The notes under the pieces: model-generated | Told to the model about the DNA's origin: nothing | The model's input: the letters and a program-made list of their open reading frames with translations, nothing else | Databases searched by the model: none | Source: Prosthecobacter sp. | Lineage (GTDB): Bacteria; Verrucomicrobiota; Verrucomicrobiia; Verrucomicrobiales; Verrucomicrobiaceae | DNA length: 41,938 bases | Assembly (NCBI GenBank): GCA_021733925.1 | Contig: JAIPJY010000058.1 | Span: 1-41,938 of the forward strand | Reading direction: 5' to 3' | Part shown: positions 12,364 through 19,025 of the stretch, in pieces | How positions within the stretch are numbered: position 1 is the stretch's first letter | How the letters are laid out: each line of letters begins with the position of its first letter | Translations under genes and position numbers: made by a program

Positions 12364-15036
12364 ATGCAGGAATTTCCATCGCTCATCTGGCACGCGGCAG
12401 AATCTCGAACGATTGTGGCAGCGCTGGAGAGCGACGCACATGCGGGACTGAGCGGCAGCGAGGCGGCTGAGCGTCTGAAGCAGCATGGGTTGAACGAACT
12501 TCCCAAGGACAAGCACAAGCCGATGTGGCGGGTGTTTGCATCGCAGTTCGCGAGTCCCTTGATTTACATTTTGTTCGTCGCGGCGGTGATCTCTTTTGCA
12601 ATGGGGCATGCCAGTGACGCGGTGGTGATCCTGGTGGTCGTGCTGATCAATGCACTCATCGGCGCTGTGCAGGAGGGCCGGGCGGAGCATTCCATGACGG
12701 CGCTGCGCAAGCTTTCGGCGCTGAAGGTGCGCGTCGTTCGGGATGGAAAGGAATCGATCATCGAAGCACGGGAACTGGTGCCGGGAGACATCCTGCTGCT
12801 CGGCGCTGGAGATCAGGTGGGGGCCGATGCGCGACTGCTGGAAGCGGCAGCCTTGGAAGCCACCGAAGCTGAACTCACAGGGGAGTCGCTGCCGGTTTCG
12901 AAAAACACCGAGGTGGTGCCTGAGGACGCTGGGCTGGGTGACCGCAGGAGCATGATTTACTCCGGCACGCACCTCACCGCAGGTCGTGGTCGCGCGATGG
13001 TGGTGGCCACGGGCCTGCAAACCGAGGTGGGGAAGATTGCCAGCCTCACGTCAACGGCGGAGGAACCCCAAACGCCGCTGGAAGCCCGGCTCAAGCAGTT
13101 TGGAAACTGGCTGGTGGTCGCCTCCATCGTGCTTTTTGTCTTGATCCTCGCTTTCGGCCTGCTGCGGGGCATTCCCTTTGTGACGATTTTCATGGTGGCC
13201 ATCAGTCAGATGGTTTCGATGGTGCCGGAGGGTCTGCCTGTGGCCATGACGATCGCGCTGGCGGTCGGAATGCAGCGAATGGCGCGCCGAGGGGCCATCG
13301 TGCGGCGTCTCGCTGCGGTGGAGACGCTTGGGTCCACCAGCATCATCTGCAGTGACAAGACGGGCACACTCACGAAAAATGAGATGACTGTCACGACACT
13401 GATTCTGCCGGATGGTCGTGAAATCGAAGCTACGGGGGCGGGATATTCGCCTGAAGGAGAGCTGCTCGATACCCGCGAAGACGATGCCGCGCTGAGGGCT
13501 TTGCTGGAGGCGATCACGCTTTGCAATGATGCGAATCTCGTGCCGCCCGAGGCGGAAGAAACACGGTGGAGACCCTTGGGGGATCCGACTGAGGCGGCTT
13601 TGCTGACGGTTGCACTCAAAGGTGGTGTGGAACCCGAGACGCTGCGCCATGAGTGGCCGCGCCAGGCGGAGATTCCCTTCGACTCAGCGGTGAAGATGAT
13701 GGCCACGCAGCATGGCCGAGATGGAAAGTGTCGGGTGCTGATCAAGGGGGCGCCCGAGAAGCTGCTGGATCTGTGCGATCCTGAGACACTGGATCTGGCA
13801 CAGGTTCATCAAACGTCCGAAAAACTCGCCAAGCAGGCGCTCCGTGTGCTCGCTGTGGCGGAGGTGTACGACATGCCACTTGATGAAGAGGCCGGTTTTG
13901 AACCCTGGAGCGGGCGACTGCGTTTTCTGGGTCTGCTGGGACAAATGGATCCACCGCGTGATGAGGTGAAGGCGGCCGTGGCCGAGTGTCTGGCGGCGGG
14001 CATCAGGCCAGTGATGGTCACCGGAGATCACAAGGCCACCGGGCTTGCCATCGCGACCGAGCTGGGCATCGCGAAGCCCGAAGACATCGCCCTGGACAGT
14101 GCGGAACTCGAAGCGATGTCCGAGGCTGATCTGTGCGCCAGTTTGGAACGAATCTCCGTTTTTGCGCGGGTGCAACCGGCGCAGAAGCTGCGCATCGTCA
14201 AAGCCTTCCAGTCACAGAAACAGGTCGTCGCCATGACCGGAGACGGCGTCAATGACGCTCCGGCGCTCGCAGCGGCGGATGTCGGCGTGGCCATGGGCAT
14301 CACCGGCACGGAGGTGGCCAAGGGCGCGGCGAAGATCGTGATCACGGATGACAACTTCGCCACCATCGTCAAGGCCATCGAGGAAGGCCGGCTCGTGTAT
14401 CAGAACCTCAAGAAGGTGGTGCTGTTCCTGTTTGCCACCTCCATCGATGAAGTCCTCGTGCTGCTGCTGGCGTTGCTGTGCGGCTACCCGCTGCCGCTGG
14501 CGGCGGTGCAGATCCTGTGGATCAACATCGTGACCGAAGGCGCGGTCACGGTGAATCTGATCATGGAAGGCCTGGAGGGCGATGAAATGCGCCGCCTGCC
14601 CACGCCGATGAATGAGCAACTCATCACACGGCCGATGCTCCAACGGCTGCTGCTCATGGTCAGCACCTCGGTGGTGGCCATCTTTGGTTTCTTCCTGTGG
14701 CGGGAGGCCAGCGGCGTTCCGTTTGCACTCGTGCAGACGGAGACGTTCACACTGATCGCAGTGACCCAGTGGTTCAATGTTCTCAACTGTCGCAGCGCCA
14801 CCCAATCCTCCATCAGCCTCGATGTGCTGCGCAATCGGTGGATCGTCGGCGGCCTCATCCTTGGCAACGCGCTGCACATCCTCGTCATCTATACCGAACC
14901 GATGAACCGGATTTTCCACACGGTGCCGATCCCGCTGGCGGATGTCGTTCTACTTGGTCTCATCGGCAGCAGCGTGCTGTGGGCCGAAGAAATCAGGAAG
15001 TGGTGGGCACGGCGTCAAGGGGCCGGTTCAGCGTGA
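12364..15036 (+). CDS. Cation-transporting P-type ATPase, P2 (PMCA/PacL-like)
   Basis: 890-residue inner-membrane pump with the N-terminal cation-ATPase domain. Motifs in order are TGESLPVSK (actuator), MVPEGLP in M4, CSDKTGTLTKNEM with the phosphorylated Asp, KGAPEKLLD (nucleotide domain), MVTGDHKATGLA, and MTGDGVNDAPALAAADVG. PEGLP in M4 and a chain of about 890 residues fit Ca2+-type P2A or Na+-type P2 pumps. M5 has ATSIDEVLVLLLAL. M6 reads LWINIVTEGAVTVNLIMEG, with Glu where most P2A pumps have the ion-binding Asp of NxxTDG, so ion choice is uncertain. The 3' end overlaps the convergent parvulin gene by 22 bp. The ATG lies 87 bp from the divergent dehydrogenase; no strong ribosome-binding site. 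Confidence 0.93.
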   Translation: MQEFPSLIWHAAESRTIVAALESDAHAGLSGSEAAERLKQHGLNELPKDKHKPMWRVFASQFASPLIYILFVAAVISFAMGHASDAVVILVVVLINALIGAVQEGRAEHSMTALRKLSALKVRVVRDGKESIIEARELVPGDILLLGAGDQVGADARLLEAAALEATEAELTGESLPVSKNTEVVPEDAGLGDRRSMIYSGTHLTAGRGRAMVVATGLQTEVGKIASLTSTAEEPQTPLEARLKQFGNWLVVASIVLFVLILAFGLLRGIPFVTIFMVAISQMVSMVPEGLPVAMTIALAVGMQRMARRGAIVRRLAAVETLGSTSIICSDKTGTLTKNEMTVTTLILPDGREIEATGAGYSPEGELLDTREDDAALRALLEAITLCNDANLVPPEAEETRWRPLGDPTEAALLTVALKGGVEPETLRHEWPRQAEIPFDSAVKMMATQHGRDGKCRVLIKGAPEKLLDLCDPETLDLAQVHQTSEKLAKQALRVLAVAEVYDMPLDEEAGFEPWSGRLRFLGLLGQMDPPRDEVKAAVAECLAAGIRPVMVTGDHKATGLAIATELGIAKPEDIALDSAELEAMSEADLCASLERISVFARVQPAQKLRIVKAFQSQKQVVAMTGDGVNDAPALAAADVGVAMGITGTEVAKGAAKIVITDDNFATIVKAIEEGRLVYQNLKKVVLFLFATSIDEVLVLLLALLCGYPLPLAAVQILWINIVTEGAVTVNLIMEGLEGDEMRRLPTPMNEQLITRPMLQRLLLMVSTSVVAIFGFFLWREASGVPFALVQTETFTLIAVTQWFNVLNCRSATQSSISLDVLRNRWIVGGLILGNALHILVIYTEPMNRIFHTVPIPLADVVLLGLIGSSVLWAEEIRKWWARRQGAGSA

Positions 15037-16222: not shown

Positions 16223-17014
16223 ATGACATTCCGAAGTCTAATCCCCCTGCTCATTGCGGCCTGCACCGCCTCGGCTGCTGCTGCAACCATCAGCGTGACC
16301 GGGTTGGACAACGGCGGTGATTCGATCGGCCAGTATAGCATCAATGGCCAGACCTACTGGTGGCTGTGCATCGAGCCCGGCGTGCCTGCTTTGAGCAACC
16401 AGACCATCACTGCAGAGACCTATTCGATTCATGATGGGTGGACTGTGCAGAACACCGAGCGCAACGATATCTACCTGTCCGACCCCTCTTTCTACGCCAG
16501 CATCATTACGAAACAGGTCTCTGTCATGGAGTACGTCCTCGACACCTACCTGCCCTGGGACACGCTGGCAGGCGCCTCGGGTCGCTTCCTTGAGCGGAGC
16601 GGCGACTACAACAATTTCGGGAACAACGACACGTTTTACAACGCGATGTTTGCCGTGCAGAACTTCCTGGCCCAGACCGAGGGCAAGCCGCCCAAAGCAG
16701 ACTACACGGACATGAGCGACTATCTGGACTACTACATCGGCCTCGGCAATGCCACGGCTGATGCCCGCTCCGCCATTTTCCAAAGCATGCTGAGCGATGT
16801 GGCCTCCAAGGATTCTTCGAACTTTTTCGACACCTACACCGCCCAGCACCAATACTTCACCGTCAGCACTTTGCTTCCCGAAGCCGACATCAACAACTGG
16901 CAGGACGGTCTGGTCATCGGCGGATTTACTCCTGTTCCTGAGCCCGGCGGGGCCCTCCTCATCGCCAGTTTCGGCATTGCGTGGACACTGCGCCGCCGCC
17001 GTCGGATTGTGTGA
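16223..17014 (+). CDS. PEP-CTERM surface protein with possible thioester domain
   Basis: 263 residues with signal peptide (MTFRSLIPLLIAACTASAAAA) and C-terminal sorting signal: VPEPGG, a hydrophobic segment and RRRRR. Exosortase would process this signal and send the protein to the exopolysaccharide layer or surface. The body starts with a beta segment ending in YWWLCIEPG (Cys49) and later has AMFAVQNFLAQTEG (Gln146). A Cys in an aromatic-Cys-Ile-Glu-Pro setting, followed about 100 residues later by a hydrophobic-Gln helix, resembles the Cys-Gln pair of thioester-domain adhesins (PF08341-like). That assignment is my inference. The upstream 16140-16220 stretch is very AT-rich and probably contains the promoter. 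Confidence 0.85.
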   Translation: MTFRSLIPLLIAACTASAAAATISVTGLDNGGDSIGQYSINGQTYWWLCIEPGVPALSNQTITAETYSIHDGWTVQNTERNDIYLSDPSFYASIITKQVSVMEYVLDTYLPWDTLAGASGRFLERSGDYNNFGNNDTFYNAMFAVQNFLAQTEGKPPKADYTDMSDYLDYYIGLGNATADARSAIFQSMLSDVASKDSSNFFDTYTAQHQYFTVSTLLPEADINNWQDGLVIGGFTPVPEPGGALLIASFGIAWTLRRRRRIV

Positions 17015-17240: not shown

Positions 17241-19025
17241 ATGCGCTGCATCTTCACGACACCCCCGCATTCTAGGGCGCCTTTCTGGCCTTGGGCATGG
17301 TTGATGGTGTCCTTCTGTGCCTTGCTGCTCACGCTGCCTGCCTTGGGGCAGGATCTGCAGCTGGAGATCGTGCCGATGGCGAATGGTCAGGCGCTGCGGC
17401 TGAATGAGCCGCTGGCACTGGCGGTGGCAGCGCAGGTGACGCGACTCGACTGCCTTCTCTCAGGGCTGGCTTTGCAGAAAGAGGACGGCACCTGGCTGGA
17501 ATCGCAGGACTGGTTTGCGTACCTGAGTACGGCTGCGGGTCGCCTGACGGCGAAGGTCTCGGGCATGCCTGCGGGCGAGTACATGGGCATCCGATTCCGC
17601 ATTGGAGTGGATGAGGCCACGAACAAATCTGACCCGAATCGTTATGCGGCGGATCATGCGCTCAATCCGCAGGTCAATGGCCTGCACTGGGGCTGGCAGG
17701 GCGGTTATATTTTCATGGCGCTCGAAGGCCGCTTTTCGAATGAGGGAAAGGAGAGCGGGTTCTCGTATCACATGGCCAATGCGCCACAGTTGATGACGGT
17801 GGAACTGCCGGTGGCATTTCGGGGGGGACGTCCGCTGACACTGGCAGTGGAGTTTGATGTGCAGCGCGCGCTGGCGGGCATCGACTTCGCCAAAGAAGGC
17901 ACCTCGACGCATTCGCGTGCGGGCGATGCACTCGCGGCGAAGCTCAAGACGAACATCGAGCAGGCATTCCGGGTGCGCAGCATGCACTACGATGTGTATC
18001 AGACACCGACGTTCGCGACGACGCCTGCTCCCCTGCCCGCAGGCACCCATACGCTGACACCAGCGATGACGCAGCGTTTCCCGCAGGTGCAGCTGCCCGC
18101 CGACAATCCGCTGACGCAGGAAGGCGTGGCGCTGGGCCGGGAGTTGTTTCATGACACGCGGTTGTCGGTCAATCGCACGCAGTCCTGCGCGTCCTGCCAT
18201 GATCAAACGCATGCCTTTGCCGATGCGCGGCGCTTCAGCCTGGGCGCGCAGCAGCAGAAGGGCAGGCGCAATGCGATGCCGTTGTTCAATCTGGCCTGGC
18301 AGCCGTCTTTCTTCTGGGATGGCCGTGCGGCAACGCTGCGTGAGCAGGTGCTGATGCCGATCCAGGACGCGCATGAGATGAATGAGACGCTGCCGAAGGT
18401 CATTGCCAAGCTGAGCGCGGATGCGGAGTGCAGGCAGGCGTTTGCGAAAGCCTTTGGTTCCGCTGAGATCACGCCGGAGCGCATCGCGAAAGCGCTGGAG
18501 CAGTTTCTGCTCACCCTCGTCTCGCAGGAATCACGCTTTGACCGTGCGGTGCGCAAGGTGGCGGAACTGACCGAAAGCGAGAAGCGCGGGCTGCAGCTCT
18601 TCGTGACGGAGTTTGATCCCAAGCGCGGGCTGCGCGGTGCCGACTGCTTTCACTGCCACGGCGGCACGCTGTTCGCGAGCCAGTCGTTTGCCAGCAACGG
18701 TCTTGAACTTGCGGAGGATGACCTCGGCCGAATGGCGGTGACGCAGAACGCCGCTGACCGTGGGAAATTTAAAACGCCCAGCCTGCGCAACGTCGCCCGC
18801 ACAGCGCCCTACATGCATGATGGTCGTTTCAGCACGCTGGAGGAGGTGGTGGAACATTACAGCAGCGGCGTGCGCCGAACCGCCACGCTGGACCCGAACC
18901 TGGCCAAGCATCCGGAAGGAGGCATTCAACTCACGACGCAGGAGAAGGCTGATCTGGTGGCCTTTCTCAAGACGCTGACGGATGAAAGCTTCATCGGTGC
19001 ATCCGCCACCACTGCAGCAAGATGA
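17241..19025 (+). CDS. MbnP-like copper protein fused to MbnH/MauG-like di-heme domain
   Basis: Exported protein of about 594 residues with two parts. After a signal peptide (hydrophobic core WLMVSFCALLLTLPALG), residues about 40-235 match the MbnP/TIGR04052 type. It contains VNGLHWGWQGGYIFMALEGR (His149, Trp150, Trp152) and a second His in FSYHMANAPQLMTVELPV. Residues about 280-585 are a di-heme cytochrome c peroxidase/MauG-like domain with CASCH at 316-320 and CFHCH at 469-473. It also contains FFWDGRAATLREQ and FKTPSLRNVARTAPYMHDGRF. In known systems MbnH oxidises a Trp of MbnP to kynurenine, which then helps bind copper; they are normally two adjacent genes. Here enzyme and substrate lie in one chain. 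Start ATG 17241. A small palindrome (CTGACTTGTCAG, 17180-17191) lies upstream. No methanobactin or TonB gene is nearby. Confidence 0.85.
   Translation: MRCIFTTPPHSRAPFWPWAWLMVSFCALLLTLPALGQDLQLEIVPMANGQALRLNEPLALAVAAQVTRLDCLLSGLALQKEDGTWLESQDWFAYLSTAAGRLTAKVSGMPAGEYMGIRFRIGVDEATNKSDPNRYAADHALNPQVNGLHWGWQGGYIFMALEGRFSNEGKESGFSYHMANAPQLMTVELPVAFRGGRPLTLAVEFDVQRALAGIDFAKEGTSTHSRAGDALAAKLKTNIEQAFRVRSMHYDVYQTPTFATTPAPLPAGTHTLTPAMTQRFPQVQLPADNPLTQEGVALGRELFHDTRLSVNRTQSCASCHDQTHAFADARRFSLGAQQQKGRRNAMPLFNLAWQPSFFWDGRAATLREQVLMPIQDAHEMNETLPKVIAKLSADAECRQAFAKAFGSAEITPERIAKALEQFLLTLVSQESRFDRAVRKVAELTESEKRGLQLFVTEFDPKRGLRGADCFHCHGGTLFASQSFASNGLELAEDDLGRMAVTQNAADRGKFKTPSLRNVARTAPYMHDGRFSTLEEVVEHYSSGVRRTATLDPNLAKHPEGGIQLTTQEKADLVAFLKTLTDESFIGASATTAAR

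Follow-up and report, generated by a model that had tools for sequence, protein, structure and literature searches.

An exported MbnP-MbnH-type fusion protein in Verrucomicrobiota and its genetic link to a galactose-oxidase-like enzyme

In the known systems of separate proteins, the di-heme enzyme MbnH turns a tryptophan of its partner, MbnP, into kynurenine for copper binding. MauG makes TTQ in methylamine dehydrogenase. In the separate pairs that we examined the two genes are adjacent, with MbnP first. The methanotroph protein CorA is described as holding copper through two histidines, a water molecule and a kynurenine, and as being separate from CorB (PMC3912023). The sources likewise assign a two-histidine and kynurenine site and a MauG-like di-heme partner to both CorA/CorB and MopE/SACCP (PMC3912023; PMC3621798), and state that MbnP has no marked sequence similarity to MopE or CorA (PMC3621798). 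In Streptomyces, maturation of GlxA at low copper needs Sco and the heme peroxidase DtpA, the latter being proposed to remove the H2O2 made by GlxA (PMC4736821).

The gene analyzed here lies in a 41,938-nucleotide stretch of Prosthecobacter sp. DNA (the window) and is a variant of the MbnP/MbnH kind. An uninterrupted ORF with an ATG start (17241..19025, + strand, as all features below) encodes 594 amino acids plus stop. Residues 1-36 (17241..17348) look, by eye, like a putative signal peptide, and are followed by an MbnP domain at residues 37-223 (17349..17909), recognized by Pfam PF20243 with an E-value of 9e-34 and 117.5 bits, above the gathering cut-off of 27. A linker of about residues 246-285 (17976..18095), with approximate boundaries taken from Pfam and structure-relative matches, leads to the MbnH/MauG-type di-heme domain (18096..19007), delimited by the place of its TIGR04039 match and recognized by PF03150 (CCP_MauG; E 1.4e-56, 191.7 bits against a cut-off of 25.6, best stretch 294-439). 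Translation and alignment locate the two CxxCH heme motifs at residues 316-320 (18186..18200) and 469-473 (18645..18659). The initial annotation had read MbnP-type and MbnH/MauG-type domains in one exported chain, and this is confirmed by the single ORF with both Pfam domains over cut-off.

By NCBIfam cut-offs, neither half is a canonical member of its family. TIGR04039 (MbnH family di-heme enzyme) is the best-scoring NCBIfam model, at 260 bits, below its cut-off of 362.85; TIGR04052 (MbnP family copper-binding protein) reaches 40.3 bits against 140, and TIGR03791 (MauG) 200.8 against 443.85 for the fused chain. Among solved chains, the best relative of the fused protein is 6e1c, titled 'Di-heme enzyme', which we take to be MbnH (E 1.2e-53). 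With the N half alone as query, only 7l6g is matched (E 0.21; its title is 'Metallo-mystery pair system four-Cys motif protein'); a profile built from six canonical MbnPs matches the same chain at 9.2e-101.

Compared with the separate pair (PF20243/TIGR04052 and TIGR04039; 7l6g and 6e1c), the fusion has the same domain families in the same order, the WxW motif, one conserved histidine, two CxxCH and the Tyr and Trp columns described below. Unlike the pair, it is a single chain, below both NCBIfam cut-offs, without the four-Cys motif and with a histidine in place of the invariant methionine, and its genome holds no MbnB over cut-off: its N domain is an MbnP by PF20243 and WxW, but not a canonical one. 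The annotation had also seen no methanobactin locus nearby, which stands as far as MbnB is concerned: the best match in the genome to TIGR04159, the MbnB profile to which this check was confined, scores 44 bits against a cut-off of 325.

The HWGWQGGY segment begins at His149, and its HWGW (17685..17696) comprises His149, Trp150, the predicted kynurenine, and Trp152. When 7 fused and 8 separate MbnPs are aligned, the two Trp of WxW show no variation, nor do Gly155, Phe158 and His177; WxW is also invariant in 19 fused sequences chosen without regard to this motif. An alignment of 68 fused sequences (A3: the window copy, plus the 67 loci that remain of 72 complete ones when L024, L026, L028, L033 and L041 are left out) was chosen using WxW and is not counted as evidence for its conservation; another alignment, A2, was made without the broken genes G108 and G121. 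His177 (17769..17771) and His224 (17910..17912), by which the 68 sequences were not selected, are invariant in all of them; both are predicted copper ligands.

His224 belongs to an STHS motif and is placed, by both MAFFT and hhalign, in the column of the single invariant non-initiator methionine common to the six canonical MbnPs. There, the Cys and Met of a GCMS sequence are invariant in the six separate proteins; the fused ones have STHS and no matching Cys. Both separate Deinococcus MbnPs also have His in this column. Since the MbnP site reportedly consists of His, Met, water and kynurenine, and that of CorA of two His, water and kynurenine, the fused proteins are predicted to carry a CorA-like ligand set (His/His/Kyn) in an MbnP framework; the likeness to CorA and MopE is drawn from published descriptions.

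In the C-terminal domain, Trp359 (18315..18317) falls in the column of the MauG inter-heme Trp, with Trp in 41 of 41 rows, and Tyr540 (18858..18860) in that of the axial Tyr of MauG and MbnH, where every fused, MbnH, Deinococcus and MauG row carries Tyr. The Tyr540 column is Tyr in 24 of 24 fused rows, and Met in four and Tyr in three of seven cytochrome c peroxidase (CCP) rows, which favours, without proving, a MauG/MbnH-type enzyme over a classical bacterial cytochrome c peroxidase. Both the conserved Trp of WxW and the MauG-type heme motifs named by the initial annotation are found again across fused proteins, the former in separate MbnPs as well. Although mean identity over the 68 sequences is 42% in the N half and 61% in the C half, the residues predicted to be key in either domain do not vary. 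A motif search located STHS in 65 rows and missed it in 3; its distance to the first CxxCH is 86-101 in 64 of the 65 and 124 in the remaining one. Such near-constancy across the linker fits a defined geometry, rather than demonstrating action within the chain.

In a tree of 41 di-heme domains, the 24 fused rows included form one clade (100/99), joined to the separate MbnH and Deinococcus pairs at 85/86 by a node that is not starred. MauG, which is like the fusion in being di-heme with conserved Tyr and Trp columns, differs from it in lying outside the fused and MbnH group, on a long branch. The idea of a standard cytochrome c peroxidase whose N-terminal extension has nothing to do with MbnP is rejected on the Pfam domains, the MbnP residue columns and the heme-domain tree with its Tyr column.

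The fusion is a recurrent architecture, neither chance nor artefact. PF20243 was found in 16 of 288 Verrucomicrobiota genomes and in none of 14 control genomes; the 16 genomes hold 21 such genes, 19 intact and 2 broken (G108 and G121), and all 19 intact ones are fused, with both CxxCH in the same frame. The window's genome has a second fused gene, a 599-aa frame on contig 49. An assembly error, or a stop codon hidden between the domains, is excluded by the uninterrupted ORF, this second copy and the fusions in other genomes. When GTDB was scanned with the N domain, 329 relatives were confirmed: among the best 80 of them, 72 have both CxxCH in frame, 6 run off the end of their contig, and one CxxCH is left in L043 and none in L057. 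The two surveys overlap, since L055/L020 and L076/L012 are at zero distance. Across 68 sequences, N-half distances and C-half distances show a correlation of 0.88, the highest of 1000 permutations giving 0.18, which indicates that the halves travelled together.

Of the same best 80 of 329, 79 are titled as Verrucomicrobiota taxa; the other, L093, is a fused copy in a bin labelled Pseudomonadota, with a galactose-oxidase domain in the same genome, and is either a mislabelled bin or a fusion outside Verrucomicrobiota. Broken fusions show transposase-like ORFs between the pieces (G121 contig 1, L121) or frame breaks (G108 contig 3, L120, and L043). None of the 401 plasmid records with a match reaches at least 80% of the fused chain; five plasmid records (L122, L123, L124, L125 and L126) contain di-heme MbnH-type genes whose product is apparently misnamed, as 'methanobactin export MATE transporter MbnM'. 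A search of titles and abstract openings, outside the main MbnP and MbnH papers, found no paper on the fusion or its galactose oxidase link. Those two papers, Manesis 2021 PNAS (MbnP) and Kenney 2019 JBC (MbnH), may already mention fusions.

Immediately downstream of the fusion, many GTDB loci have a gene for an exported protein (about 1300 aa within the available sequence) which matches galactose oxidase (9g43, E 3.4e-90; 1gof, E 2.8e-63) and features Kelch, galactose-oxidase-like E-set, PKD and beta-propeller-like matches. Some copies have two CxxCH near the end; those reaching far enough have two C-terminal CxxCH. All 20 aligned copies keep the Cys and Tyr columns of the cofactor and the Tyr-His and His columns of the ligands. 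Two oxidase frames, L025:6674-10618 and L153 (G000 contig 75, from about 138060), could encode a copper radical oxidase with hemes of its own.

With no gene in between, the oxidase gene comes after the fusion in 25 of the best 80 of 329 GTDB loci and in 6 of the 19 intact survey loci; the linked pair at L038 belongs to a cultured species, Brevifollis gellanilyticus. Stop and start codons overlap as ATGA in 19 of the 25 GTDB cases, or 18 of 24 without L043, whose fusion frame is broken. In a tree of 86 fused proteins, all 29 oxidase-linked rows fall into one group of 38 (84 SH-aLRT), together with nine unlinked rows, the window among them. The window copy has no oxidase beside it, and its nearest relatives in the tree are mixed (L023 unlinked, L025 linked). 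Its genome encodes one galactose-oxidase-like protein, a 3129-aa frame on contig 75, which keeps HDMFC, RWYN, RNYHS and THS.

The association extends beyond adjacency. The galactose-oxidase E-set domain occurs in 7 of 288 genomes, all 7 being among the 16 with a fusion (Fisher 3.8e-10, phylogeny ignored); oxidase and fusion are adjacent in 6 of them, the exception being the window's genome. Twelve genomes hold a fusion of or near the window's subclade with no adjacent oxidase seen: 10 have an oxidase elsewhere, the two without being those of L033 and L051. Among the loci of these twelve, L024, L028 and L033, which are off the tree, were assigned on the identity of their N domains, while the position of L093 is immediately beyond the 38-row group; at L024, L028, L031 and L033 less than 1 kb is visible downstream (166 bp at L033), so that adjacency is not fully excluded there. 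For comparison, 24 loci in 23 genomes were hand-picked, in advance of the outcome, among the YHYH- and GSDH-linked part of the tree, along a deep split with 72 SH-aLRT only. An oxidase over cut-off was found in 3 of the 23. In two of these genomes there is also a fusion belonging to the window's subclade (L024 or L030); the record prefix of the third is that of L047, a fusion copy truncated at a contig end and outside the subclade assignments. One more genome has a match below cut-off (23.3 bits). With those three removed, the comparison is 10/12 against 0/20 (Fisher 1.0e-6, for hand-picked twelve and 24 loci and with phylogeny ignored). An oxidase presence due to adjacency alone is rejected by the in-trans counts (10/12 against 3/23 genomes). 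The window's fusion falls in a subclade tied to the oxidase either through translationally coupled genes or through an oxidase gene at another place in the same genome.

Other loci feature different neighbours. Among the best 80 of 329 GTDB loci, 16 have a YHYH protein (PF14240) encoded on the fusion's strand at a distance of up to about 1 kb, and in 8 a GSDH protein (PF07995) follows the fusion; none of the three partners is found in 28 of these 80, 10 of which have less than 1 kb downstream, and 3 more are unscored. In the survey, YHYH proteins are found beside the fusion at 9 of 19 loci (six by the distance rule; L140, L143 and L145 added on inspection), with another ORF in between at four (L136, L140, L142 and L143), and 4 of the 19 intact loci, window included, have none of the three. 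All 16 fusion genomes have YHYH proteins, as do 14 of the 272 other genomes. In the tree, the paralogue from the window's genome is placed with a YHYH-linked row, and it sits after a YHYH gene. The YHYH proteins beside fusions of other subclades, as at L069:3028-4860 and, next to the paralogue, at L119, are possibly metalloproteins: 11 copies, when aligned, share the YHYH motif and several conserved His. The GSDH-like exported proteins after the fusion (L059, L065, L075, L078, L081, L087, L088 and L092) go with one tree group (88 SH-aLRT). We know of no copper role for YHYH or GSDH proteins. At L140, L142, L143 and L147, genes resembling, by eye, response regulators or histidine kinases adjoin the fusion; copper-responsive control is possible.

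Around the window gene itself, a copper operon was looked for and none was seen: by Pfam, the seven neighbours scanned are a P-type cation ATPase, a PPIC isomerase, a PtsI-like, a TPR and an S9-like protein, and two without match. Upstream lie a PEP-CTERM-like protein (16223-17014, by eye, no Pfam match) and the P-type cation ATPase (12364-15036), whose ORF clusters recur in 8 and 5 loci, respectively. Besides the oxidase, no recurrent copper gene was seen by eye in the neighbour clusters of the loci, few of which were scanned with Pfam. The initial description of a 'stand-alone' copper-protein system is misleading: genes for exported partners lie beside many of the related fusions, and the window's subclade is tied to the galactose-oxidase-like copper enzyme.

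The explanation that we prefer, to which, as a whole, we assign a probability of about 0.5, is an exported MbnP-MbnH fusion with a kynurenine Cu(I) site, acting as copper donor or maturation factor for an exported partner. The C-terminal di-heme domain would oxidize Trp150 of the N-terminal domain to kynurenine, which, with His177 and His224, would complete the Cu(I) site; the matured N domain would then serve the partner, which in the window's subclade would be the galactose-oxidase-like copper radical oxidase. Homology makes the Trp150 step, and genetic association the copper supply or maturation of a partner, the most likely course of events; maturation within the chain is possible. The company that relatives of the fusion keep with a galactose-oxidase-like copper enzyme points to a role in preparing this enzyme or in loading it with copper. 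A functional parallel is the service of Sco and DtpA to GlxA, where copper handling and a heme peroxidase likewise attend a galactose-oxidase-family enzyme, through separate proteins of other families (Sco and a DyP-type peroxidase; PMC4736821). Counting against the preferred explanation are the window copy itself, whose genome has its oxidase on another contig, the partnerless loci, the YHYH and GSDH neighbours, the Tyr found in 3 of 7 CCP rows, and both missed NCBIfam cut-offs.

Those three unrelated neighbour types would be readily accommodated if the kynurenine site served general copper uptake, storage or sensing, the neighbours being co-regulated rather than clients. CopC and CopD genes close downstream of one of the two separate Deinococcus pairs, and the location of methanobactin-linked MbnP/MbnH pairs in copper-uptake loci, point the same way; we nonetheless consider a general role unlikely, as the galactose-oxidase domain occurs only with the fusion in 288 genomes and, in one subclade, the association also holds in trans. 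The di-heme domain might instead work for the partner, by oxidizing one of its residues, removing the H2O2 of the oxidase or passing electrons with its C-terminal hemes, the N domain mainly docking or holding copper. The C-terminal CxxCH pair of the longer oxidase copies and the activity proposed for DtpA (PMC4736821) speak for such a task, which the conserved WxW and His of the N domain, and a Tyr where 4 of 7 CCP rows have Met, make still less likely than a general copper role. Finally, missed profile cut-offs and the absence of the canonical Met and four Cys might reflect a fusion that lost kynurenine formation and copper binding, both domains having turned to another redox task; predicted key residues that stay invariant while the two halves diverge render this loss highly improbable.

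Returning to the donor or maturation role, its broadest form is a tentative one, which we hold to be somewhat doubtful: a single-chain, self-maturing copper maturase for exported enzymes in Verrucomicrobiota, whose own kynurenine site, made by its heme domain, would load copper into a dedicated galactose-oxidase-family enzyme, or help its Tyr-Cys cofactor to form; by extension, the YHYH proteins (PF14240) beside sister fusions would be copper enzymes on the same plan. Gene order, translational coupling and co-occurrence all connect the fusion with a single defined copper enzyme, which gives a testable client; its chain is a 1:1 construct of enzyme and substrate for studying Trp-to-kynurenine maturation. 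For the MbnP family, it predicts a His/His/Kyn site, and its neighbours point to YHYH proteins as possible metalloproteins.
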